Shown: positions 44,470 to 63,876 of the stretch, one piece after another
Numbering within the stretch: the first letter of the stretch is position 1
How the letters are laid out: each line of letters begins with the position of its first letter
DNA from: Hymenoscyphus infarciens
Taxonomy: Eukaryota; Ascomycota; Leotiomycetes; Helotiales; Helotiaceae
DNA length: 64,000 nt
Reading direction: 5' to 3'
Assembly (NCBI GenBank): GCA_001414345.1
Contig: LLCB01000123.1
Coordinates: 97,803-161,802 of the forward strand
Position numbers and translations under genes: made by a program
The notes under the pieces: generated by a model
The model's input: only the letters and a program-made list of their open reading frames with translations
Told to the model about the DNA's origin: nothing
The model's database searches: none

Positions 44470-45946
44470 CTAAGCAAGTGGTGCGCAAGAAAATGGGCTA
44501 CGAACAGTCCCCTTCGCGTAGCCCTGTCTAATACCAACAACAGCCGCGTATGTCCCCGCGACCAAGACGACCATTCCAATGATGAAGACAATTCCATTGA
44601 CGATACTCAGGAACAAGTTATCCTTGGCGTACCATTTACCCTTCTTGATGAGCATGAACCACATCATGGCCGGGAAGTAAAAGGTAAATCCCGAGATGAA
44701 CAGGGCGGACATGATCGACAAGAGATCAGAGAAGAATGGAATGGCCTCGGCGATGAGCCATGCGACGAGAGTGATGACAACGAGTAAGCAGATCCATGAA
44801 ATCCAGCCCTGTCTGGTTTGAGTAACAAATCGGTGCACGGAAGCCTTGTAATAACGTCCGTGGATGTATCGCGCCACGACGGTTCCATTGATGGAGCCGG
44901 AAATGAAGATGACGGGAAGAGCGACTCCAAAGGCGACCCTTGCCATCAAGGGTCCTGCGGAAAGGAGAGCCGGGGATTTGACACCTTGGCCAACAAAGGC
45001 GTAGATCAAGGATCCCGTCAGCGTATAGATGAAGATTTCAAGCAAACCCAACGCCCAGATGGACTTGACAAAATCCTTTGGTTCTGCACAAAGTTAGCTC
45101 AATTCGTAATTGCTTGTTTGAGGTGAACTTACTGTGCATCTCATCCATAAAGGAAAACTGGCAGACGGCAAAAGAGTAGGCGAAAACGATGTTGGTGACG
45201 GAGTTGAAGGCGTCTGAGAAAGTGATATTCTCCTTGGGCCAAGCTGACCAATTGACCGCTGACAGTCCACCAGGAGCCTTGCCAGCCACAACTGCGGTGG
45301 AAATGATGGTGATGCCGATTGCCAGCATGACGGATACGAAATCGATGTATCCCAAGATAGCCACCTCAGAGAACGAGGGAGGGATTGCGACGAGAAAGAG
45401 TATGATGGCGGAGATGAAGGCAAAAGCAAGCGAGCAGATAGCATTGTGGCTCAAGTTCCCAAAAGCGATCGCTCCCGTCAAGCAATGGGATCCGACCAGG
45501 AAAATCAGTTGCAGAGCAAACATTGCACCAATCAACTCGTATCCAAATCTTCCCATCATCAGTCTGCCGGCGTCGGCATAATGAGCGACTTCAGGAAACT
45601 TCAATTTGACTTGTCCGACCACATAACTGGTATAGATGGCGACCAAACCGAGTCCAACGGTGAGGATGACACCTGCCACCATGCCAAGGGTCGCATAGGC
45701 ACCGGGGATGGAGAGGGCACCGAGAGCAATCGCTTCGACCAGCAACACCACCGTCAGTCGCTTCCAGCCCAGACGCTTGAAGTGCTGCTGTCCCTGGGCC
45801 TCCAGCAATTCGGCCTCCCCCACGATTTCATCCTTGGCGTTTTGCGAGTTGTAGTCACGCGTCGAGGTTTTGCCGTCCAGTGAGGACTTTGGATCTTTGT
45901 CAGCCGGTGGAGCAGCCGTGATGCCCTTTTCTGAGAAGTCTGACAT
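44470..45946 (-). CDS. Neutral/aromatic amino-acid permease, AAAP family (Mtr-like)
   Basis: Exon 1 is 45946-45133, intron 45132-45084 (49 bp, GTAAGT...GCAG), exon 2 45083-44470. The product is 475 residues, the usual size for fungal amino-acid/auxin permeases. A polar N-terminus of about 80 residues (from MSDFSEKGITAAP) is followed by about 11 transmembrane helices. These start with LTVVLLVEAIALGALSIPGA, the conserved first helix with the Gly-Ala-Leu-Ser-x-Pro motif. The family imports amino acids with protons at the plasma membrane. An upstream in-frame ATG at 46099 would add 51 residues encoded by GC-rich leader sequence. I prefer 45946 because the hydrophilic tail then has the normal length. 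The frame is intact. Confidence 0.9.
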
Positions 45947-47224
45947 TTGGCGCGGAGTCTGAGGACTCAGGAGGGAGAATCCGGGATACCTTTGGGGAGG
46001 GGGACCGGGTGGAGGAAGCTCGAGAGTCGAAAGTTGATTGGAGCTTTGCGGGGGGTCGGATGTTGAGCAGGTCTGAAGGGGGAAGGGTGCGTGCTGCAAG
46101 ACAACAATGCGGTGCAGTGCGGTGCAGTACGGTGCAGTGCGGTGCGGTGCTTGAGGGAGGAGGAGGAAGGATGAGGGGGGTGAGCAGAGATTTTAACTTG
46201 TTATGAAAGTAGTACCGTACCTAGTACCTAATAGAGCCGAGAATGATACGAAGGATGCATTACTGTCCAGTCTGTGTAAGGCAATCAATCAATCAATTGC
46301 ATTTGGGTGGAGGAGCTGGGCTGGGAGCCGTCCAAAGTGTGGACTGTCGACGATTCGGAGATTCGGGAAGAAGGGAGCGCTTTCCTTGCTTTGGTTCTTG
46401 GGAAGGGAAGGAGCACCCCATGTTTTCCCTTGAAGCTTTGCTTTGCTTCGCTTTGCTTTGCTTTACCTTTACTTCGCTTTACCTTTACTTCATGTGAGAG
46501 ATCTTCAGCCGCGAAGATGAGGCGGTCACTTGGTGGAGCTTGTTGGTTCATGACGTTGTCTCGAGTTGGTCGCTCCTGCTACTTCTACACGTGCGTTTCT
46601 GGCCACCAACTCCAACTCCAACTCCAACTCCAACCCAGTTCAACCAACTTAGAAGTCGCACTTTGCATCAGGAACTGGCAAAGTCGTGACCTGCTTCGCT
46701 GAATCTCGAAAATGGCAGGATTCCTGGATTCCTAGGAAAATGTGGTGGGTTGCGACTCGCGAGAGTCAGTACTATGGGTCTCTGACGCGCTACCTTGTTT
46801 CTTTTACCTCATCTCACCGATTATTGTGGCTCTAACAGCCATACCATCGAGTCAGGATTTTCTGTCCATGCGAACATGGCCTGCCTAGGCGCGAGGCGAA
46901 GACACATAAATACCAACGCGGGGGCGACGCGAGAAATGATGATGGAAAGTTGTGTCCAGATTCCAACGCAAGTTGACCAAAGAACTCGAGGTCGTCGAGG
47001 AAGCTGGTGAGGTGTCGTCGGGATCAAAGTCAAAATCGGCATCGCACCCCTGACCCATGCACCAGCCATGCCCTGAGGCTCTTTCACGGGGCTGCAGCAT
47101 CCCGCAAAGTGCCGGACTTGGCGACGGGATCTCCACAATATTAAGCATTTTTCCAGCCACCTACATTTCAGCCCTTGCCGAGTATGATAAGTAAACGTAT
47201 GCACCAGATACATTGATAACGATG
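45947..47224. other. Promoter/intergenic region of the permease, with simple repeats
   Basis: Minus-strand promoter side of the permease. GCGGTGCAGT-type repeats lie at about 46107-46160. CTTTGCTTTGCTTTACC-type repeats lie at about 46434-46495, and a (CCAACT)n run at about 46605-46635. Several overlapping frames at 46200-47210 exist on both strands, but none shows a domain and they owe their length to the simple repeats. TATA-type spacing is not evident. Confidence 0.5.
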
Positions 47225-48031
47225 TTCAATATACGCGCGAACCCATTTTGGAATCTTTTAGCAGAGGTTGTCATGTTTTCGAAAATAGAGCATTATCTGA
47301 TGAGTTTGGTTTACTTTGTCCTTGAAACTGTTTAACAGAAGAATAAACTTCTAGTTAAACGTAGAAGATACGTCTGAAATTCCTTATTAGGTATTTAAAA
47401 CTCCTTTAAAGTCTCCGTATAACTTAATAATTACCCGGGAGCTATAACTTCTAAGCCTATGACGTGAGAAGGCTTAGAAGAGATAAGATTAGATAACTAA
47501 TAACGGAATTAGCTTAGACTAACTAAGAATACTTTACTTATAATCAATTTTATATAACTAAGTTCCAGGTTCTATAATCTTAAAAGAAGCTATATAACAT
47601 ATATAATTTTATTCAAGGCTTAGACTAGAGTATATACTCGCTTAAACAGTAGAATCTACTATAATATAGAACGTATTTATAATACTATTTAAATATTTCC
47701 CAACTATTTATCTTCGTTCTAATTTAGCTCTTCTACCGCTCGTCGGTGTCTATAGATTAGATGGAAATAAACTAACTAGATATAGATAGTTATGAACCTT
47801 ATAAACTACTACGAGTAAAATACTAAAATAAACGACGATACTTTCTCAAAAATAGAAATAACTTAACTTAATAACTGAAGTCTTTAATAAAACAATAGTA
47901 GAATTTAATAGAAGGCAAAGAATATATTTATTCAAAGATACTAGGTAATTAAACGCTATATAGCGCACTTAAATAATCTCTCAAACCCCGCTTGAATCTA
48001 CTCTCTGTGCTCCTTTAGCACAAAAGATGTC
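47225..48031. other. AT-rich, RIP-like patch
   Basis: A decayed element with no frame left. An 11-bp inverted repeat CTTCTAAGCCT...AGGCTTAGAAG (47448-47458 and 47470-47480) could form a hairpin. Confidence 0.5.
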
Positions 48032-48150
48032 ACATACGACCATAGACTAAGGAGAATTGGGCATCCCGTCCGCTCTGCCATACACAAGCCTTAGATCGGC
48101 AGATTAGTAGTTGGGTGGGTGACCACCAGCGAATACCTGCTGTTGTATGT
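48032..48150 (+). rRNA. 5S ribosomal RNA
   Basis: 119 nt beginning ACATACGACCATAG and ending CTGTTGTATGT, with the near-invariant core TAGTAGTTGGGTGGGTGACC followed by ACCAGCGAAT. The 5' and 3' ends pair (ACATACGAC with GTTGTATGT). Helix II pairs CTAAGG (about 48046) with CCTTAG (about 48087), and GCAG pairs with CTGC in helix IV. The folding is therefore preserved although these arms differ from the usual fungal sequence. Fungal 5S genes are often dispersed singly and transcribed by RNA polymerase III from internal elements, as fits this lone copy. It lies between two AT-rich patches. Confidence 0.9.
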
Positions 48151-48154
48151 TTTT
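48150..48154 (+). terminator. Pol III T-run after the 5S gene
   Basis: A run of T directly after the mature 3' end (TGTTTTTGTC), the usual RNA polymerase III stop signal. Confidence 0.6.
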
Positions 48155-49824
48155 GTCTAATCCATTTTTGTCCTTTTTCGTTTTTGCTAGTTTAAGAGTC
48201 ATTATCACCGAATACGACATAGCTAGGTACAATGTACAACCCAACCCCATTTTATGAAAGAGGACTGTGTTTTGCGTTTTGAAAAAATCTAGAAGTCGAA
48301 ATTTTCATTTTCATAATACTACTTATAGAGTAGGAAGTCTAGATAAGATGTTATATTATATCTTATCTTCCTCTTTTAAACGTTAGATATGCCGTGCGTT
48401 TAAGAGATAGATAAGAGAAAGAGCGACTTTGAGTTTTTTCTTATATAGAGGTTAAGACTTATTCAAGACTAGAACCACTTCTACTCGTAGAAGTAGTCTA
48501 GCTAGCGATTTTTCTTAAGATAGAGATAGAGATAGAATCTATAAGATATAAGACTTAGATATAGCGTAGGCTATAGTAGAGTAGAGTTTAAATTAGTCCT
48601 ACGTAAGATAGAGTTTATAGAGAAGTAAGTAAACTCTTATTCTTTACTTACTTATTAGCTTACTATTTTAATAGATAGGAATTCTAATAAAATCGAGATA
48701 TTTCTATAAATAAAAAAAAGAAAGGAAAAGAAAAGAAAAGAAAAGAAAGGAAAAGAAAAGAAAAGAAAAGAAAAGAAAGGAAAAAGGCTATAAATATATA
48801 CTATTAGTAGATAGTCTATTAGAATAGAGAAAGCGATATATATATATACTTTCTTTAGATCTATTTAGTACGTATATAATTTGATTTATATATATACGAG
48901 TTATATACGAGCGTAGAGTCGAAAGATACTCGTATATATCTCTTTATTTTATAAGTTTAGCCTTGAATATATTCTATATTATTTAGCTCGTATATATATT
49001 TTAGTATATCTTTCGTTAACTCTAGTAGTTATAGTAGTAATAGTAGTATAGAAGAAAAGATATATATATAAGTTAAAGATTAAGAGATTAAAAGAGTATA
49101 TTATTTAATTTTAGTAGAGTATAAAGAATATATAAGCAAAAGTATATACTATAATATCTGCTAGCTAAACGTTAGTATATATTATAATATATATATATTA
49201 TATATCTATGTATATTATTCTTAGTAGTATATATATTAAAAAAGGACTAATATATACGAGCTAAACAGGCTCTTAGATCTACCTATTATTAGTTAGTTAT
49301 ACAGAGGAGCAATGGTCAGTTGCGTGACAATAATCGCGGGGTTTTTTTACTCTCTTAAGTTAGATACTATTACTTTAAGAAGTTCGCTTCATTCTTAGAA
49401 TAAACTTATCGCAGTTTTAAATTGCACGAAAATGACAGCAATTGAACTTTATATGAACATTCAGTCAGTGAATTGGCTTTCTCCGCCTCTTAGTACTATC
49501 TGGATATTTTCCTTCCGCTTAGGTGAACTCCGTGTTTTTCTACTTATAAGTATATAATAAGCAACGCTAGTTATAAATGACTTATTTATTAAATAAAAGA
49601 GGGATAAGTACTACTAGAACACGGTCTATGATTCATTTTAGTGTTTTATTTACTAAATATTTATTAATTTGTTAACAAGGGTTTACTTAGCCTATCCTAG
49701 CCTAACTTCCAGGCTAGGCTAGGATGGGAAACCAAAAACACTACATTCAGTTCTCTTTTTTAGGAGGACATTAGACTCATGTCTCGGTTTTCTGCAAAGA
49801 CCACCTCGTTTGATATCCTTTGGC
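48155..49824. other. AT-rich patch with an AAAAG microsatellite
   Basis: No gene. An (AAAAG)n run occupies about 48712-48785. AT-rich DNA with many TATATA runs continues to about 49300. At about 49689-49720, CCTAGCCTAACTTCCAGGCT(AGG) forms an inverted repeat built on AGCCTAGCCT that could mark a transposon end. The right part (49720-49824) is the 3' flank of the SET gene. Confidence 0.5.
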
Positions 49825-51578
49825 TCATATACGAGATCGCTTCATATCAGCCAGCACTTCCACAAGTATCTCTTCCTGCCCGTTTCTGTATGCCTTCGCT
49901 ACTCTCTGCCTTTGGTTCGTAGGGATCTCGAGTATCCGATTTCCCAGCATCAAGTCGTCTAACATCTTCTGCATATGCTCTGTCAAGAACTCAATAACAG
50001 CAAGCCCATTCCTCTCGGAAGGCACAATGAAAGGTTCTATTCTCAAAGCAGCTCGCTCCACCAATGTTGCGATATGGAATGACACCATAGACACGAATGT
50101 GGGATGGAAGTGTCTGAGAGCCTCCACGGGATGCTGAGGATTCATCACTCCCCGTCGATCATGGGAAGGAGACCGAACGGTGACAAAGGCAAGATGTGTC
50201 TCGTATGCGAAAGCGTAAGGCTCGTCGATGGTGGCTGGGGTGCTGAAGACAGAGTGGCTAGGATGCATGGGCTTGGTTACATCGAATGGGAACCGGAGCG
50301 TGAGCTCAGAAGCCTGATTGTCGGGGAGGATGAATCCAAACTCCTTTAATACTGCAGGCGGAAGGTCAGTTACCAATTCGTACTGGTCATAGAAAGATGT
50401 GGATACTGACGAAAAGTGTTGTTGAATCTCTGCGTGTCCTTGTCGTATGGGATATGAACGCTATGCCCGGGTTCCATGTCCGTCACTTTGGCTAAGCCAA
50501 GGCAGCCCTCAACGAAGTCATATTCTAGCGGCTCGATTTGCTCATGGCTGCGCATGATCTCGGAGTTAGTGTTGTCATTTCTAGAAGTATGTTTGGGAAA
50601 AGCAGGAGGAAACAGTGTTGTAAGAGGAGGAAATAAGGAGTAAACCATGTCTTAGTCCTCCTGAAACCTGAAAGAGGGGGGGGGGGGGAAACTCGGAGAA
50701 TACCCACTTCAAAGAGTCCAAGACTGGAATTAGGATTTTGGCGGTGTCATCGAGACTCACACCGCACTTTGCCAGCACCTGATACTCGGGCTTGATATTG
50801 TCTATGTCTCCTTCAAATGCGATCGACCAAAAGGATCGTGACAGGAAGATGTAGTGCGCCCACATACCCAATTCTCTATATCGAAACCATTAGTCGAGTG
50901 TGTGAAAATCTGTTTCAACACGAAGATACAAACAGTGTGTATGCAGAAGTGTCCCAGCCAGAAGCCTCCAAAGCTGCCGTTGCCTCTCGCCAACGGGATC
51001 TCAAATCTGCTTTCTGCTCTGGAACCATGTCTTCCAAGTGCGTTCCTCGAAGCCACTTTAGATCTTCTTCCCCCCAGAGTATCGGTATTGCGCTATTTTT
51101 CTCATCGTTGGGCTGAGGTAGTATTTGAATGTACCTGTGGTTTGTCTTAGTGTTAGCAACCTTGCTAATACATCATCGACAGACTCGCGTACGGGTACCA
51201 AAAGCTAGCCTCACCCAAGAGATATTGCTGCACAAGAAATATCGCATTGATGGTGTCATGGTCCACACTTTTGCTGAGGTACTCCTTCGGCAAGGATTTT
51301 GAGCGAGGATGATAACCAGACCCTGGAATGCCCGCAGAAATGGCATTGAAATACGAAAGTGTCAGATTGTATGAAACGCGCAGGAACGGTTCATTAGATT
51401 TGACAGCTGTTCCTTCGGGGTCGATGATTGCTTCGACCCCCCGATCTGCAGTTTCAATGTACTTTAAGGATGGGTGGATGTATGTTCCATTATCTTGCGC
51501 CCATTGGAGTAATCTTCGATATTTCGTTTCAATGGCAGTGTGATTGGTTGAAGCAATTTGTCCTGTGACTCCGTTCAT
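49825..51578 (-). CDS. SET-domain protein lysine methyltransferase (RuBisCO-LSMT/SETD type)
   Basis: Five exons: 51578-51193, 51134-50934, 50875-50708, 50580-50411 and 50351-49825. Four introns of 58, 58, 127 and 59 bp keep the frame, giving 483 residues. The start MNGVTGQIASTNHTAIETKY leads into LLQWAQDNGTYIHPSLKYIE and RGVEAIIDPEGTAV, the N-terminal SET strand region. The middle has SFWYPYIQILPQPNDEKNSA and WGEEDLKWLRGTHLEDMV. The insert is followed by MWAHYIFLSRSFW and a degenerate Asn-His box (LIPVLDSLKND). NNTFLLKEFGFILPDN (about 304-320) is the ELLLxYGF motif, followed by a helical substrate-binding domain. Family members methylate lysines of proteins such as ribosomal subunits. It shares a divergent promoter with the ATP-grasp/methyltransferase gene, so a cluster role is possible but unproven. 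The long third intron contains a C/G homopolymer (about 50678-50690). The Asn-His catalytic box looks altered (Lys-Asn), so activity is uncertain. Confidence 0.75.
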
Positions 51579-52287
51579 TTTACTGTATGTTTAAAAGATG
51601 AGGATGAAGGGTGAGGATTTTTACCCTTTTTAAATGAGGGTTGATGTAAATGGCAGGGACGGGTTTCACTCAGACGACACTATTATCTGATCGGTTGTAA
51701 AGGAATTGTTTTCCTCAGGCGTCCCATTAGTTTGGCAAGATCCAAAGTGGAAGCTTATTGTCCCAAAGGATCTAGCTCAATAACTCAAATTGTTCCACAA
51801 GTTTTCTAGTTATAATGAGTGTTACTAGACCCCGCAGCTTCCGAGTCCCACGGTAAGTATTTATTTAGGCCCGACAGAGGAGGACAAAAGAGAAACCATG
51901 TACCAAGCCCCTTTGGAATAGCAATGAGCGGTATGAGCACTTTCTCAGGTCAAGCAAATTCTTTCCCGACCAATTAATTGGGTCGCACAACTTCGTACCG
52001 GATTTTTGTTGTGCTAGCTACACTGCATCATCTATACCCAGCCGGTGTACCACTCCGGCACGGCAGGAAACCTCCGTGCCACCAGATGATCAACTATCAG
52101 GCTGGTATTGTTACCCAGGCGGGTCACCTTTTCTGCGCTACATTGAAAAGACCAAATTCAAGCACTGCTTGGCATGGAGAGAACAAAGAGCTCGGGATGT
52201 TCTCGCTTTCCACGTTCTCGTATTTTTCATTGAGTTCACTGATTGCTCTTCATTCGGTTTCCAGTTACTGAAGAGAATTCGCAAACG
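51579..52287. promoter_or_regulatory. Divergent promoter between the SET and ATP-grasp/methyltransferase genes
   Basis: 709 bp separate the two starts. It contains the inverted repeat at 52057-52080 and no convincing coding frame of its own. Confidence 0.55.
52057..52080. promoter_or_regulatory. Candidate Zn(II)2Cys6 regulator site
   Basis: GGCACGG (52057-52063) and CCGTGCC (52074-52080) are a perfect 7-bp inverted repeat with a 10-bp spacer. This includes CGG-N10-CCG, the geometry bound by dimeric fungal zinc-cluster activators. It lies 208 bp before the ATP-grasp/methyltransferase ATG. Binding is inference. Confidence 0.4.
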
Positions 52288-53883
52288 ATGAAAATTGCAG
52301 TTCTAGAAATATCCCACAATGGACCAGAGGAATTTGTGAGTTGACCAATACTATTAGCAATTATTAAAACACTATAGACATAATGGCAGCCTGAAGTCGC
52401 ATCAGTTCATCTAACTTTGTAACTCAATAGCAAAAGGGGCACTGGTGTGATCCGACCCCATACATTGAAGCTGGAAAACACGAAATCCACCACAAAAAGA
52501 TCAATTTGGAAGAAATCAAGCAAGACCTACCCAAAATGAAAGATGAGGGGTTCGCTATTTACGTCCTTTCAATGGTATGCTGACGTCAAATTTCGAAAGT
52601 CTCATCGCGAAATTGCTAACGTCTCCTGCCAGTGGCCAGAGGAGAAAACTAAAGACACTGCTTGTGAGGTGACGAAGTTACTTGAGTCTCGCGATGAGAC
52701 GGTTCTCAATTTCGCTCACGAATCCACATATAAGAGGAACATCACTTCACAAGCCGGACCGCAAGATTCTCTTGGTCTCGAATTGACTCCGGGTACTGAG
52801 TATTCCGTGCTGGTTCTCGAAGCGGGCACAGAGATCTTGCTGTTCGATTCAGTTGAATGTCATCAGGAGAAAATCCGCTCGACGGTTGTTGACGCACAAC
52901 TGGCGACCAGATTACTCGACGCCACTCGGGCAGTATTACCTCCTGTACAAGTTGGAGATGGATGCAGTCTCGTTCGCGTGGACCTCATACATAGTAACAA
53001 CATTGGAAAGCCTGAGGCCATAAGGATTTGTCGCAACCCCCGAATCTTCTCTGGCAGTTTGAGTTCAGCCACCGATGCGTTGGTGGAGAAAACCGTACCG
53101 TAAGTTGATTTTGCACTTAGTTTCACTCTTCCGCAGAAATTCCTTCTACACGAAACTTCCCCGGGACAGACCACAGCTGACCCAATGTTACCTAGAGGAG
53201 GCCATACAGCATTACTTGATCTTTTGATCGCCGTCAAGAGGTTGGGCCGCAACGCAACATTGGACAACCAAAAGATTGTCGACACCTATGTTGAGTACTC
53301 ATCAATATATGACAAGGAAGTGATGGAATTTCCCTACTATCAAATTCTCCAGAAACTCGTAGCTGACTACAACTGGATTGGTACCGTGATGGATGTGGCC
53401 TGTGGCACGGGGCTTTTTGGTAAACTCATCAAGGAAAAAGGGTTCTCCTCTACTATTGTCGGCATCGATCTCTCACCCCACATGACCTCAAGTCCTGCCA
53501 TTCGTGAGTGCTACCTGTCGCCGGTAACAATCGGGACGATGCAAGCTGCGATGATGAAGCCAGTTCAATTCGATCATGTCGTGTGCTTTGGTGCTTTGGT
53601 ATATCTTGATGACGTGGATTTTGTTGCAGTCTTGTCTCGAATGTTCATTGTCGCACAAAAGTCGATAACTTTCGATATCGAGGACTCCTCGGAGGAGTAT
53701 ATGAAGAAGTGCGTCGAGGATGAGAGTCTGATTCCCAGTTATAACCACACGAAAGCATGGAAGAGCTTTAAAATCCCTGCACGGTGGAAGGTTACGTATG
53801 AGAAATACGGACTTCTCTATCACGATGATCATTTCACGCATTGCGATATCTTTGATACTATGGTTAGGTTGGAGAAGTGTTAG
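52288..53883 (+). CDS. Fusion of a degenerate ATP-grasp-like domain with a SAM-dependent methyltransferase
   Basis: Proposed exons: 52288-52335, 52431-52574, 52633-53094 and 53137-53883, 466 residues. Residues 1-85 (MKIAVLEISHNGPEEF, then GHWCDPTPYIEAGKHEIHHK, FAIYVLSMWPEE) resemble the N-terminal lobe of D-Ala-D-Ala-ligase-like ATP-grasp proteins. TPGTEYSVLVLEAGTEILL and FLLHETSPGQTTADP (about 219-233) match the late ATP-grasp strands. The ATP-binding lysine/glycine-loop region between them is short or missing, so ligase activity is doubtful. Residues about 265-466 are a class I methyltransferase with motif I VMDVACGTGLFG (302-313) and IVGIDLSPHM after it. The first three exon joins are in phase. 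The last intron is only 42 bp with a weak GTACCG donor (GTAAGT 5 bp on would break the frame), so a frameshift here is possible. Likely acts on a cluster intermediate; inferred only from position. Confidence 0.6.
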
Positions 53884-54268
53884 TACTCAGCTTGGTGACT
53901 GATTTAATTTGCTTTATTATAAGTTTGGAGACCTTCCTGATCAAATCTGGTTTCCGCCCTCGCAAGGGCAAGAACTCGTCTAATTTTTGTATGCCTGTGG
54001 TGCACCACCCCAGCCTGCTTTCCTCTCCTCCTCCACTTCTCATTGATATCAGATCGATAGTGACAGTGACAGAGGTGGAGTGGAGATTAAGGGGTGCTAG
54101 AGGGAGGCGACGGTGCGGGGTCTGCGAACTCTGTGTTTAAAAAAAGTCTTTTGAAATTTGAATCTTGGTCTGAACTCCATTCCGTGGCTTGATTAAATTA
54201 CTATTCTGATTCTAACAGCAAGGAATACAGCATCTAGATAGCACACTTCTACAATCCTCCATCAATAT
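53884..54268. other. Convergent 3' spacer
   Basis: Between two convergent genes; no coding content. Probably holds both polyadenylation regions. Confidence 0.5.
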
Positions 54269-55465
54269 TCACTCCCAGCAGAACCATACCCTGAGTTTCT
54301 TTCCTCTTTTCTTTCCCCTTCGAAGCTCTTGGCTTCCTTCGGATGAGTCTGCAGTAGTAAGACTTTCTTTGGAAGATTTTGGTGTTTTTAGATCACACCT
54401 CAAATTTCCTTCAATTGAAAGGGGCGTAGGTCCCCATTCTCTAACAGCAAAACCCCCCACGCCCACAGCTTTCTCATAGTATTGCCGAAATCTGTCTCCG
54501 TAAGGGGATTTGCTTGCCAGCTCATAGACCTCGATCATCCGAAACCTCTCATCACAGAAGTGCCAAGTAACGTATCCATGGATGAATGCATGAATTGCTT
54601 CTGTGATCTCTGATGTTTTTCCATCGTCGAAGATCTGCTTCAGACGCTCCACGCAATTGATCGTCTCCTTGGTAAGTCGTTGAAACGCCTCTTCCAAAGT
54701 GATTCCGTCAACCTTGCAATAATTCATAACCAGGCTGACCTGGTCCCGTGGATTTTCGAACTCCTTGAAGAATGATACCATATCATTGACCAAAGCAATC
54801 ATGGGCTCAATTTGAGCAATGACTGTTGTAATCTCCAAGAAATGTGCCTTTTCATCGAATTGTTCCGCAGGGAAGAGACTTGCTCCGCAAATCCCACCAA
54901 GTCCGACCATCCGTCGAAGAAACCCGGGATAGTAGTCTGAACCCGGAAATCCTTGAAAGTTGTGCTGCTCAATCCAGCACCCCTGAAAGTAATCCAAAGT
55001 ACTGCGGAAAATGGCGAGCCCGCAAAAACCTCCATAATGTTTGAGAAACTTAGGCAGGTACGAATTCATCAACAACCAGAATGTGTGTTTTTGTTGGTTG
55101 CCATCGATAAGGTTTTCCGAGAAACGTTCCATGTCCTTATGAGGGTCATCGTTATCATCATCTAGCAAGACAATGTGCACGAAATAGATGCTGATAGCAA
55201 CCATGACTTCTCGAGGAATTTTCACCCAGCAGTACACGACAAGTTGTACGCTGGTGCGCATGACGATTCCGAGTTTCCTTGGATCCACTTTGAATAAATG
55301 TTGCTGATTTAGTCGCGCGAAGTGTTTTGCCGTTTCGGAGTAGACATATTGAAGGGTCTCCAGCCTCTTGGTATTGCTGAAGTTGTCGTCGTGATATTCG
55401 ATAGCGTCTAGGAATTTCACCAAGGAGTCCAAGTAGAGGTCGAGTGGGAAATCTTCTTTGGTCAT
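54269..55465 (-). CDS. Trichodiene-synthase-family sesquiterpene cyclase
   Basis: A single 398-codon frame beginning MTKEDFPLDLYLDSLVKFLD. The first metal-binding motif is LLDDDNDD (Asp102-Asp107). The second, NSE, is NDMVSFFKE (Asn227-Glu235). The basic DERFR motif (305-309) is in the right place. CWIEQHNFQGFPGSDYYP (163-180) and RRMVGLGGICGASLFP are further family signatures. The enzyme class ionises farnesyl diphosphate with Mg2+ in the cytosol and cyclises it to a sesquiterpene. The product cannot be predicted. The C-terminus after about residue 355 is an unusual Lys/Ser-rich tail. Family genes often carry a small intron; none is needed here. All catalytic motifs look intact. It shares a 759-bp divergent promoter with the P450. 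No other trichothecene-pathway gene is visible, so this is not evidence of trichothecene production. Confidence 0.9.
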   Translation of the reverse strand: MTKEDFPLDLYLDSLVKFLDAIEYHDDNFSNTKRLETLQYVYSETAKHFARLNQQHLFKVDPRKLGIVMRTSVQLVVYCWVKIPREVMVAISIYFVHIVLLDDDNDDPHKDMERFSENLIDGNQQKHTFWLLMNSYLPKFLKHYGGFCGLAIFRSTLDYFQGCWIEQHNFQGFPGSDYYPGFLRRMVGLGGICGASLFPAEQFDEKAHFLEITTVIAQIEPMIALVNDMVSFFKEFENPRDQVSLVMNYCKVDGITLEEAFQRLTKETINCVERLKQIFDDGKTSEITEAIHAFIHGYVTWHFCDERFRMIEVYELASKSPYGDRFRQYYEKAVGVGGFAVREWGPTPLSIEGNLRCDLKTPKSSKESLTTADSSEGSQELRRGKKRGKKLRVWFCWE

Positions 55466-56224
55466 TTTGGTGAGCTCTTCTGGGTGCGGAGGGATGCAGC
55501 TGATTGAGTGTATAATTCTTGTCAGCCAGCTGGCAATTGAGCTTTTACCCTCCTGGCAATCAGTGTGGAAAGTGTACGAAAGTTAATTTTAGGAAGATCT
55601 GCGCCATGAAACCTCTTGCCGCATATGTTGTTCCTCGAAAGATTGTAGTAGTTCAGCCAGCCACGATAAATGAAATGGGAGAATCGAGGCAACGCCAAAA
55701 AGTAGATGTCACCTTCTTTGATCGGATTAGCCCATCGTTACTCAAGGGCCTCGTTTTAATTTACCACTTTGGTTCCATGGACTGATTCGCTCTTGCTTGC
55801 TAGAGCTATACCCACAAAGTACAACGACATTTCGTCCGTGGTGGCGTAGTTTCTACGCTGTATATGAAGCTTAGTGTGAGTTTCACATCTTCTAGTCGTA
55901 TGTGACGGGCGCTCAACCAATTCTGTGCATTGAAGGTTGACCTGGGCGATCAGCAAAATCACAAAATACTTATCCACATTGGATTATTCATATTGGCGAA
56001 CAAGTTCATGTCCGGTGCTGGGATTGAAATTTTAAGTGATAATGGGGAGTAGCTTTTCATCCACCATCTCTTATTCTTAGAGCATAAAGATTAGTAGGAC
56101 ATACAGCCCTTGAGAATTGTAGAGGGTGATTTTGGTTTGTGGAACACTTCCCTACTTGAAGACAGATTATCTCACTGATTTCCGATCTTTCCGAGGTATC
56201 AAACTTCAACTCCAGCATCAAGTT
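55466..56224. promoter_or_regulatory. Divergent promoter of the sesquiterpene cyclase and P450
   Basis: 759 bp between the two starts, with no supported gene. Opposite orientation of a cyclase and a P450 from one promoter is a usual biosynthetic-cluster layout and suggests co-regulation. An alternative P450 start at 56126 (33 extra residues) lies inside it. I saw no second copy of the 52057 inverted repeat. Confidence 0.5.
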
Positions 56225-57979
56225 ATGTTTGAGAATATTCTCACAGTGGGGAATCCAACTAAATTTGTGTGGACAATCTTGGGTAGCATTATCCCATACT
56301 ACTGTCTAACATGGATCTACAACATCTATTTTCATCCGCTCAGCCGGTTTCCTGGACCAAAGCGAGCAGCAATGGGGTTTCTCTGGGAGTTTTATTGGGA
56401 TGTTCTCAAAGACGGCACGTATCTCTTTGAGATTGAAAGAATGCATCGAAAGTACGGTAAGAAAACCTCAAGCCAATGCCTCCTGATGAGGTGAACAGAG
56501 ACTTACAAAATTCAAAAGGGCCCATTGTTCGAATCAACCCTAGAGAACTACATATCTATGACCCCTACTTCTACAGTAGTATCTATGCTGGTGGTGGTCG
56601 AAGAATCGACAAAGATCTCGATGCCGTTGCAGCATTCGCGGTCCCCCAAGCAAGTCTCGCAACGGTTGGACACGATCTTCATCGACTCCGACGGGAAATT
56701 CTTAGCAAGTACTTTTCAAAACGATCCATAGTCAACATGGAGCCAGTCATGAATGAGCGGATTGATCGGCTGATCGCGAGACTCGAAGAAGAAATGCATC
56801 GTGGGGTAGTGGTTGATTTTGACAGCGCCTTTGCATGCCTGACGGCGGATGTGATCACTCAATACTTTTATGGTTCAAACTTTGATCATCTAGGATCCAC
56901 AAATTTCAAATTTGAAGTTAAGGAAGCTATATTGGGTCTCATTGACTTTTACCATTGGACTCGGTTTTTTCCCTCCTTCACACGTTTCATGAAGATGCTA
57001 CCCATTCCTATCATTCGAATCATACAACCTGGCACCGCAACAATGCTATCTTCATTCAATATGCTACGGGAAGAGATTCTGAGTGCTCAGCAAGATAAAC
57101 AAGCGGGCCACACTAACTCGGTTATCTTGGAGGCGCTCAACGATGAAAGCATACCGCCCCAAGAACGGCATATCGACCGCTTGCAGGATGAAGCTTCGAC
57201 GATAGTCTTTGCCGGTACTGAGACAACAGCAAGATCCCTGAGTGTTATGCTTTTTCATCTGCTTCATGATAAATCGAAATTGACGAAACTCCGTACCGAA
57301 TTGAATACTTTGTCGCCTGCGAAAAACAACATACATCCCTGGACTACACTCGAGCAACTACCTTACCTTGTAAGACCAACATCAATTTATGGGTAAAACA
57401 ATCTGACAAAAAATAGACTGGGGTTGTGAATGAGGGCATTCGACTTGCACACGGCCCCCTCATCCGACTTCCGCGCGTAGCAACCGAGGAGCCATTACAG
57501 TACAATGATTTTGTGATTCCACCCGGTGTAAGTACTCCAGGCGCTCATCATACTACAGATTTAGCTAACAGTGAAGTGCACGTAGACACCGGTCAGCCAA
57601 TCAACTTATTTCGTTCACATGAATCCAGAAGTTTTCCCAAATCCATCAGAGTTTGATCCGGAGCGTTGGGTCAAAGCCGCAGAAGAAGGTGTACAGCTCA
57701 ACAAATTCATTGCGTCATTTACAAAGGGCAGTAGACAGTGTCTCGGTATCAAGTAAGGAGAATCTTTTCAGATTCTACCTACTCTATTACTAATACGTTA
57801 ACTATAGCATGGCATATGCGGAGTTGTACTTGACGATATCAAGAGTTGTTCACGTATTTGACATGGATGTTCGAGGTACGGTACCGGAAGACCTATTTAT
57901 TCGTCATATTCGTCTTACTGGGTATCCCGAGAAGGGTCTGGGTGAGGTGAAGGCGATTATCACTGGAAAGGCTGCATGA
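56225..57979 (+). CDS. Microsomal cytochrome P450
   Basis: Five exons: 56225-56456, 56519-57369, 57417-57527, 57586-57752 and 57808-57979. These give 510 residues with all phases consistent. An N-terminal membrane anchor ([19 protein letters not shown], about 13-31) is followed by the Pro-rich hinge [10 protein letters not shown]. The I-helix is AGTETT (309-314), the K-helix ExxR is Glu367-Arg370, and the PERW motif is FDPERW. The heme loop is [10 protein letters not shown], with the axial ligand Cys450. All P450 hallmarks are intact. It oxidises a substrate on the ER membrane with NADPH reductase. Its pairing with the sesquiterpene cyclase makes a terpene a likely substrate (inference). The start at 56225 places the anchor at the N-terminus; 56126 is possible but would precede it with a polar leader. 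Confidence 0.9.
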
Positions 57980-59095
57980 GGAAAGGAAGCATGCAGGCAG
58001 GTTACTAGACATAGAATGATGAACCAGAGAGTTGCTGTTTTTGGAAGACAGATCTGAACACTACAGGATAGCTGGAGAAGCTTGGGAGGTGTGTAGATCT
58101 TTCTTTGAAGGGTAGTACCTTATGGCCCCACTTGCTTTTGCTAATAGGGATTACCACCGACTCCGAGTTTGGGCTTTTGAATTGCGAGGGTAATATTCAA
58201 AGAATACGTTGACAATGTTACAGTGGCGTATTGTTTTCCCGTTATCGTAGTTTGTGCCTGTGAAGGAGTAACCTGTATTGCTTTTGCTCTGGTCGGGTTT
58301 GACATATGCCAACCAGAGAGGTACTTACCGGAGACATTGTAACTGCATTCCACGCCATTGTTGAACAAGGGTCCCTGATCCCTGAACATTAGGCATTGAC
58401 TACTTCCACAAGCACATGGCGGGTGCTTCCGAAGACGTAACACTGATCAGAGCTATTTAGCTACCATCTTTTCATGGTACCGTTACACTTTGTACTTAGT
58501 ACTTGGCTTCGTACTACTGTGACATGCCACAGTTATACTGCATACGTCCACTTCTGGTTTGGAGCTGAATTTGATCCATTTAAACTGAGCACAGCACAAA
58601 AAGCCATAGTCACCATAACTACCACCTCTCGGACGGATGAAGCTCTTTCGTCGAATCGTTACACTGAGTCACAATACTTTGACAACAATAAAAACGAGAA
58701 TTGCATCATAAAAGATGCTCATTGACCACAGTCCTACCACAGCCAGAATATTCAACTGAATACGGAGTAACTTAGATTAAGCGAAGAAACAATACCCACG
58801 CACAAATCAATTGAGCCCCCTATTGTTCAAGTATTTCTGGGGTAATGTACCATGCTCTATGTTGTGGAAACCAATAATGAATTCTGGGATTACAAAGTAG
58901 GGGAGGAGGCCATTTGACAGATTTGGAAAGTGATAAGCAGTCCCCATCGTCTCTGAACTCGAAATCCTGCCTCGAAGGAAAAAGAAAAGACCCACCTATA
59001 TCCTTCGAGAGAGAGAGACTCCAACAACGAAAAACATCAAAGTGTCAATCTTATTTCTCCAAAGCTCTTCAAAGGTCCGGTTTCACCAAGCAGTC
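57980..59095. other. Intergenic between P450 and the second terpene synthase
   Basis: A minus-strand frame at 58443-58141 (100 codons; starts MLRLRKHPPCACGSSQ, contains N-glycosylation sequons NVS and NIT) is protein-like and might be the last exon of a secreted protein. I could not build upstream exons or see a signal peptide, so I do not call it a gene. The remaining stretch, about 650 bp before 59096, is the likely promoter of the terpene synthase gene. Confidence 0.4.
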
Positions 59096-60295
59096 ATGTC
59101 CTACTCGGCGTTTTCCAATAGAGAACACTCCGTCGAAACCGACAAGGAGCATTGGGCTTTCAATTCACCTACTTATTTCTTTGCAACGATTCCTCCAAGA
59201 ACAAGCAAGTATGCATTAAGTTGCGACGATGCTTGTCTTCAAGCACAAATTGATGTCTTTGGCAAAGACCATGTGGGAACTATCGCCGGCTCCCATGCCT
59301 ACACTGGGAACTTCGCCGCATTAGTGTATGCAGAAAGCTTGCCAGAAAGAGCTCCCGTATTGGCTTATTTGAATGAAATCCTTGCCTTATATGAAGCTTT
59401 TGAGGTCGAAACTGCGGAGCTGGTAAATTCCCCGTTGTCTCGTACGTCTAGTTTCGTGGTCCTGTGCTAATTATGAAAGCACAGATGGGAGCGGCTTTGG
59501 ATGCGACAGTTTACAAAGATCCTAAATATGATAACCCAATTTGGCAAGCAAACTACAAAGCGGTTCTTCCAAGTATAGTAACCAGACTGGCTAATGCCGA
59601 TACCGTGCTTGGTGCGAAGTGTGTCAAGACTTTGAAAGAGCTGGTAGAGACTCCAAATCTCGAGGAGCGCATGGATACCTATACGAACATGGATGATTAT
59701 CTTATTGATCGCATTGAAGATATTGCATGGCCGTAAGCCCCCTTGTCGAAAAACCCATACCCAAAAAACATACCCAAGGGTCATGCTCATTGTATATATT
59801 AGATCTGCGACAGCATGTGCCCAATTCGGCGCCAACATCCGGCTAACAGATGAAGAAATCGCAGCGCACGATAATATCTTCTGGCCCCTCTGGGCGCACT
59901 CGGCATACAATTTCGACTACTTCACCTTGGAGAAGGAAACTGCTACCGCCCAAAAACGAGGCGGTAACGCCAAGATCATAAGTTCTATCCCCTTGCTCCA
60001 ACGACTCTATGGTCACTCGCTGGAACAAGCAAAAGCATGGGTTCGTGGCAAATGCTTGGAACTTGAGAAAGAGTATCTAAAGAGGAAAGAAGAGTTTTTC
60101 AACACGACACCAAGGGAGAAATGTCCGGAGGATTTGTTGAAGTGGTTTGACGCTCAGGAGGCGATTGCTACTGGCTTTGCCCTTTGGAATCCAAGTACCT
60201 TCCGGCAGAACCCACCACACGAGGAAGGCGTCAGGGAGTTCTATAAGAAGAGGTTAGCTGAGGGTATGACTTTCCCAGATAGCTCTATTTGTTAG
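59096..60295 (+). CDS. Atypical class I terpene synthase (fungal cyclase-domain type)
   Basis: Exons 59096-59422, 59485-59732 and 59803-60295 give 355 residues with consistent phases (first donor is GTAAAT; second GTAAGC). Residues 60-105 contain SHAYTGNFAALVYAESLPER followed by YLNEILALYEAFEVE, matching the GN...PE..PER...L.Y..E layout of the cyclase domain of fusicoccadiene/ophiobolin-type synthases. Where those have an Asp-rich motif, this protein has YEAFEVE (99-105). The NMDDYLIDR region (178-186) fits the conserved Arg of the effector triad. The NSE position reads NFDYFTLEKE (228-237), where Phe replaces Asn. There is no prenyltransferase half, so it would depend on supplied prenyl diphosphate. 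The fold is clear; whether it still ionises a diphosphate, or does something else, is open. It lies downstream of, and in line with, the P450. Confidence 0.7.
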
Positions 60296-63695: not shown

Positions 63696-63784
63696 TTAAA
63701 CTAAAGGTCACTCTTCTTATTAGGCTTCTTGACCTCACTTCCATTCCGGCCTCTCTGCCGCCGACTCTGCGACCCCCTTTTTTT

Positions 63785-63876
63785 GAACGGCTCCTAGATA
63801 CCTACGTATACGCTCTGGGACTCCCTTTTCGAACGGCTCCTAGATAACTACGTATATGCTCTGCGACCCCACGGCT
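63785..63876 (+). repeat. 46-bp tandem repeat, two units
   Basis: Units at 63785 and 63831 share GAACGGCTCCTAGATA and CTACGTATA. They lie just after the presumed LTR, in the internal region of that element. Confidence 0.75.

Follow-up and report, generated by a model that had tools for sequence, protein, structure and literature searches.

A candidate flavunoidine-like gene cluster in Hymenoscyphus infarciens with an FlvF-family protein and two divergent partner genes

Flavunoidine biosynthesis by the flv genes of Aspergillus flavus is the closest described counterpart of the locus reported here, a block of five adjoining genes (A to E) at positions 49825-60295 of a 64,000-nucleotide stretch of Hymenoscyphus infarciens DNA (hereafter the window). 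According to the accessible text of PMC8902786, FlvE cyclises farnesyl diphosphate (FPP) to acoradiene, which is then oxidised by the cytochrome P450 FlvD, and the terpene cyclase-like FlvF mediates the nucleophilic addition of dimethylcadaverine, which forms a carbon-nitrogen (C-N) bond. The same text attributes the synthesis of dimethylcadaverine to the N-methyltransferase FlvH and the decarboxylase FlvG, a hydroxylation to the P450 FlvC, and the attachment of dimethylpipecolate, supplied by FlvA and FlvB, to the nonribosomal peptide synthetase (NRPS) FlvI. FlvF is termed a cyclase-like protein in the available part of PMC12105684, and FlvI is treated in that of PMC10720950. An adenylation-thiolation-condensation (A-T-C) NRPS, AFLA_135490, appears in a table of PMC4073137; the available parts of PMC4073137 and PMC6288828 contain no statement on FlvH.

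The genome surveyed comprises 65.6 Mb in 742 contigs and is fungal by gene content; the window lies on its contig C28. Gene structures, families, the relationship of gene E to FlvF, motif losses, single-copy status and adjacency were computed. AFLA_135490 may be FlvI. FlvF is reportedly inactive with FPP and devoid of metal-binding motifs, and Tararina and colleagues are said to have described it in 2022 as a protein that shares the fold of terpene synthases without being one.

As in flv, an FlvF-type gene (protein ∼50% identical) lies together with genes for a sesquiterpene cyclase, a P450 and a methyltransferase. The locus differs from flv by two additional genes, one SET-like and the other encoding a fusion of ATP-grasp and methyltransferase parts, neither of which is named in the accessible text of PMC8902786, by a single P450 instead of FlvC and FlvD, and by the fact that neither an NRPS nor a pyridoxal phosphate (PLP) decarboxylase was found on contig C28. 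FlvH could be related to gene A or B. We concluded that the five genes probably form a flavunoidine-like biosynthetic cluster, whose product would be an alkaloidal sesquiterpenoid bearing N-methylation and whose amine tailoring would differ from that of flv. Because an NRPS was sought and not found on the contig, we do not assign the locus to the flv cluster itself.

An FlvF-family protein next to a TRI5 cyclase and a P450

The best match of gene E among solved structures was FlvF of A. flavus (PDB 8d7f, 355.5 bits, E = 3.1e-105, residues 7-348); the second-best was an ordinary terpene synthase at 65.8 bits. Its Pfam match was Terpene_syn_C_2 (29.8 bits). A search of ∼5.8 billion proteins with gene E returned seven relatives, 45-58% identical in the alignment, from Tolypocladium ophioglossoides, Fusarium oxysporum (FOBRF1_006741), Penicillium canariense and A. 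flavus (P0008), together with three unnamed proteins. In the search itself, six of the seven showed 46-56% identity over 95-98% of the query, and the remaining one was partial (49% over 51%). The A. flavus protein is 50% identical to gene E and differs from the 8d7f chain at one position in the part compared.

To locate the class I metal-binding positions, the equivalent Asp and Asn were read from alignments of gene E to FgGS and related synthases. All eight family members (gene E and its seven relatives) carry Glu at the position of the leading Asp in the Asp-rich motif. The pattern D[DE]xx[DE] was absent near residues 86-115 in all eight, and a looser D-3to4-[DE] pattern was matched once, in P0009. 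The Asn of the NSE motif is Phe or Tyr in all seven members that reach the region (P0010 is too short): in place of NDxxS, gene E has FDxxT, three members have YDxxT, two YDxxH and one YDxxR. Judged by its sequence, gene E belongs to the FlvF family, with specific full-length similarity and loss of the class I metal motifs. The preliminary description had called gene E an atypical class I terpene synthase; the altered motifs are indeed seen, but they are not unexplained, since they are of the FlvF kind.

By protein search, gene E was the sole FlvF-type gene found in the genome. A pattern search of prokaryote contigs for the FlvF family gave 98 matches, none of them a relative. An exon-wise genome scan for Terpene_syn_C_2 yielded four matches (on C1, C194 and C56, and gene C on C28), and gene E was not among them. 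At C1:462839-474499 a Terpene_syn_C_2 match (46 bits) lies ∼10 kb from two Pyridoxal_deC pieces (35.5 and 24.3 bits), which is possibly another terpene-amine cluster.

Gene C is a full-length TRI5 protein (PF06330, 516.6 bits) and the only TRI5 match in the genome. It matched the trichodiene synthase in PDB at 380 bits, and both the Asp-rich motif (LLDDDNDD at residue 100) and the NSE motif (NDMVSFFKE at residue 227) are present. Gene C is separated from the trichodiene synthases of Trichoderma in a TRI5 tree by a 98/93 split, and it stands near the FlvF-like gene E. The tree was built from gene C and 86 of its 93 homologs (those of at least 330 amino acids; seven shorter ones were dropped). 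Gene C fell into a group of 37 rows, mostly unnamed, the named ones being Peltula, Sticta, Thermoascus and two Penicillium proteins. Its own fork (86/91) unites gene C with P0023 and three rows on long branches; gene C is itself long-branched, so that this join may be false and its exact place is unsure. A 408-amino acid TRI5 protein of Penicillium angulare (P0084) bears the database name "nonribosomal peptide synthase", which probably either is a misnomer or reflects an NRPS gene nearby.

Gene D is a P450 (PF00067, 195 bits) in which the heme Cys motif, ExxR and the I-helix threonine are all present. Its best PDB match, CYP3A4 at 112 bits, says little. The terpenoid cluster with a cyclase-P450 core that had been proposed earlier is borne out. 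The starts of genes C and E are 3.6 kb apart. With one TRI5 match and one FlvF-type gene in 65.6 Mb, the probability that a random start falls within 5 kb on either side is ∼1.5e-4, and the proximity of the two is therefore not due to chance.

The divergent genes A and B

The C-terminal half of gene B matched Methyltransf_25 (40 bits) and keeps the motifs DVACGTG and GIDLS, indicating a class I S-adenosylmethionine (SAM) methyltransferase. Three homologs (P0001-P0003) were found among the ∼5.8 billion proteins, and no second copy was found in the genome. The two-part layout is common to P0001 and P0002, and most of it is present in P0003; the third exon junction of gene B is consistent with all three. 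Viral contigs searched with gene B gave three weak methyltransferase matches. A structure model of the whole protein reached a mean predicted local distance difference test (pLDDT) score of 58, and its structure matches mostly fall on the methyltransferase half (residues 228-448). Small-amine N-methyltransferases occur among the 50 structures listed; the top three belong to other kinds, and this fold is widespread.

The N-terminal half of gene B had no ATP-grasp match in Pfam; the only hit was DUF4941 (E = 0.12) in one of the four members. A profile search of this half against PDB sequences gave two designed proteins (E = 0.45 and 0.65) and nothing else. It was also modelled apart, from one contiguous exon, and this low-confidence model matched ATP-grasp enzymes by structure comparison, which suggests a half ATP-grasp fold. 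ATP-grasp enzymes of the ligase type carry an ExNxxP motif. In gene B the metal-binding Glu of the ExN motif is replaced: the site reads RICRNPRIF at residue 195, with Arg or Cys at the Glu position depending on which of two alignments by eye is used, that to the biotin-carboxylase-type EINPRI of L025 or that to ligase-type ExNxxP. One of these alignments leaves an acidic residue at this position in P0002 and P0003. To judge from its length, the N-terminal half of gene B seems to lack most of the ATP-binding lid. It differs from ATP-grasp enzymes of the D-Ala-D-Ala ligase type in these respects, in having no Pfam match and in being fused to a methyltransferase; a leftover or a binding domain is more likely here than an active ligase.

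No Pfam family matched gene A. A weak SET signal was detected to Rubisco large-subunit methyltransferase (PDB 2h21, E = 0.023). A paralog (L006, C65:94477-95211) is 34% identical over residues 19-265 and itself scores below the Pfam SET cut-off (15.4 vs. 22.4 bits). Gene A and this paralog share the layout of the Rubisco large-subunit methyltransferase type. In SET enzymes the motif Tyr is catalytic and the NH pair contacts SAM. The paralog keeps LDIGNH and LLVGYGF, whereas gene A has LDSLKN and LLKEFGF, i.e., the catalytic Tyr is changed to Phe and NH to KN, which sets it apart from the Rubisco methyltransferase type. Because both features are missing, standard SET lysine methylation by gene A looks unlikely and is predicted to be disabled, though a rearranged activity is conceivable.

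Genes A and B had been described beforehand as a SET methyltransferase and an ATP-grasp-like/methyltransferase fusion. For gene B, the methyltransferase was confirmed by Pfam and the ATP-grasp fold is backed by the low-confidence model, but not by a Pfam match. For gene A, the SET assignment holds as far as the weak signal and the motif-bearing paralog go; a Pfam match and the catalytic Tyr are missing.

Proposed pathway and alternative explanations

We propose the following substrates, order of steps (by analogy with flv) and product, with tentative roles for genes A and B. Gene C would convert FPP to a cyclised sesquiterpene hydrocarbon, which the P450 encoded by gene D would oxidise to a skeleton convertible to a carbocation. 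Gene E, without the motifs for the metal cluster that ionises the diphosphate, may hold the electrophile together with an amine and steer C-N bond formation. Gene B would methylate the amine partner or the product, and gene A would probably bind or modify the amine side. We favour a flavunoidine-like cluster because gene E matches FlvF far above ordinary synthases and FlvE, FlvD and FlvF act in one pathway; because the flv amine needs an N-methyltransferase and gene B keeps its methyltransferase motifs; and because the motifs of genes C and D are intact, the TRI5 and FlvF-type genes are single-copy and lie together, and the gene block carries no signature of repeat-induced point mutation (RIP).

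Several observations weigh against this proposal. Gene C did not group with the TRI5 protein of A. caelatus (P0051) in the tree, and orthology to FlvE is not shown. None of the few homologs of gene B is named as A. flavus, and several protein matches are unnamed metagenome proteins. The NRPS condensation domain PF00668 gave at least 14 matches on five contigs, none of them found on C28. Likewise, none of the decarboxylase matches (at least seven for PF00282 and at least one for PF02784) was found on C28, although the family of FlvG may differ. The contig stops 3.7 kb beyond gene E, and an NRPS or decarboxylase gene could lie just past that point. Either these genes lie past the contig end or elsewhere, or a product without the pipecolate ester uses an amine from ordinary metabolism.

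The upstream stretches also gave little support. We compared the A/B and C/D intergenic stretches and the last 796 bp before the start of gene E with 200 first-order resamples. No word of nine or more bases was common to all three stretches, and the two shared 8-mers were within the resampled range (maximum 4). The 20 shared 7-mers exceeded it (mean 8.3, maximum 17). Two 10-mers were common to A/B and C/D, within the resampled range. Promoter words thus offer little, and we do not claim a common regulator.

The best surviving alternative is that genes C, D and E form a flavunoidine-like module and that genes A and B are mere neighbours, which we consider unlikely. Convergent gaps are a common boundary between unrelated genes, and the gap between genes B and C is convergent (385 bp). 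Apart from the methyltransferase, genes A and B show no standard secondary-metabolism Pfam domain, and gene A has its paralog on C65. On the other hand, both are divergent, altered forms and not housekeeping genes, gene B is found once in the genome and is rare among known proteins, and an AT-rich stretch parts the two from the left-hand genes.

A trichothecene-like or plain sesquiterpenoid cluster, with gene C as trichodiene synthase or a related enzyme, gene D as its oxidase and gene E unconnected to C-N chemistry, is very unlikely. It would fit the trichodiene synthase score of gene C and its two kept motifs, but not the FlvF-like score of gene E; the split from the Trichoderma enzymes also speaks against it, though the long branch of gene C leaves its place unsure. 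Still less probable is a relic, in which parts of an old cluster no longer make a product and gene A and the ligase half of gene B have decayed: catalytic residues are missing from both, but none of the five reading frames is interrupted after splicing, homologs share the layout of gene B, and the RIP indices of the block are normal.

Within the flavunoidine-like proposal, a bolder version is possible but rather doubtful. The locus may represent another route to alkaloidal sesquiterpenoids, different in its chemistry from flv: an FlvF-type protein would couple a sesquiterpene, made by the TRI5 enzyme and oxidised by the P450, to an amine. That amine would be prepared without the NRPS-linked set, by way of a disabled SET protein and a methyltransferase whose ATP-grasp half is likewise disabled. 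Of the five proteins, three would then be folds put to new use after losing their standard catalytic residues. The preliminary description recognised no described pathway in the gene set. This does not hold for the second cyclase, which is of the FlvF type with a role described in the accessible text of PMC8902786; it does stand for the types of genes A and B, which that text does not name. The C-D-E core module is of a known kind, parallel to FlvE, FlvD and FlvF, and its second cyclase has already been explained in print, whereas no explanation is available for genes A and B. We did not encounter the five-gene combination in the literature searched, which is weak evidence of novelty as the coverage was without most subscription journals.

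An FlvF relative of ∼50% identity among other tailoring genes amounts to a second natural experiment. The site of the amine and the cation is indicated by residues common to all eight FlvF-family proteins, and amines different from dimethylcadaverine could come from the new partner genes. The size of the cluster would allow expression of all five genes in a laboratory Aspergillus host.

Gene models and genomic setting

The five genes are listed in Table 1; all frames are open after ordinary splicing. Frameshifts in genes A and B, suspected from conflicting frames, were ruled out: the homologs P0001 and P0002 show the exon join of gene B, and standard introns explain gene A, so that the gene models stand on the unaltered sequence.

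Table 1. Positions in the window of the five genes, their exons and the two divergent intergenic stretches
Feature	Position	Strand	Model
Gene A, divergent SET-like protein	49825..51578	-	splice model, 483 aa, 5 exons
Gene A exons	51193-51578, 50934-51134, 50708-50875, 50411-50580, 49825-50351	-	
A/B divergent intergenic stretch	51579..52287		709 bp
Gene B, half ATP-grasp-like domain (low-confidence) and class I SAM methyltransferase	52288..53883	+	splice model, 448 aa, 4 exons
Gene B exons	52288-52335, 52431-52574, 52633-53099, 53196-53883	+	
Gene C, intact TRI5-family sesquiterpene cyclase	54269..55465	-	398 aa, intronless
C/D divergent intergenic stretch	55466..56224		759 bp
Gene D, intact cytochrome P450	56225..57979	+	510 aa, 5 exons
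Gene D exons	56225-56456, 56519-57369, 57417-57527, 57586-57752, 57808-57979	+	
Gene E, FlvF-family terpene-synthase-fold protein without metal-binding motifs	59096..60295	+	355 aa, 3 exons
Gene E exons	59096-59422, 59485-59732, 59803-60295	+	

Nine open reading frames (ORFs; 82-140 amino acids) in the four intergenic gaps were scanned against Pfam, and no family scored above the cut-off; eight had no Pfam listing, and one matched BBP2 below the cut-off (13.2 bits, E = 0.052). The earlier statement that five genes adjoin without an unrelated gene between them was thus upheld. Pairing by two divergent promoters applies to four of the five genes; gene E stands alone behind gene D after a gap of 1116 bp.

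The base composition of the gene block is normal, and RIP is not indicated there (TpA/ApT 0.69). By comparison, a 26-kb block at 18000-44000 is AT-rich (GC content 0.24) with a very strong RIP-type bias (TpA/ApT 1.66; CpA+TpG over ApC+GpT 0.13), and a second AT-rich stretch (GC 0.286) with a weaker RIP-type bias occupies 47500-49600, between gene A and its left neighbour. The nearest recognised gene on that side consists of two overlapping amino-acid transporter frames at 44473-46192 on the minus strand (PF01490, 122 and 79 bits), and an F-box protein (PF12937, 27.5 bits) is encoded at 1443-2504 on the plus strand, at the left end of the window. At its other end the window reaches the end of the contig. 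No telomere repeat was seen in the last 3.7 kb of the contig; a 46-bp tandem repeat is located near its end, at 63765-63867.

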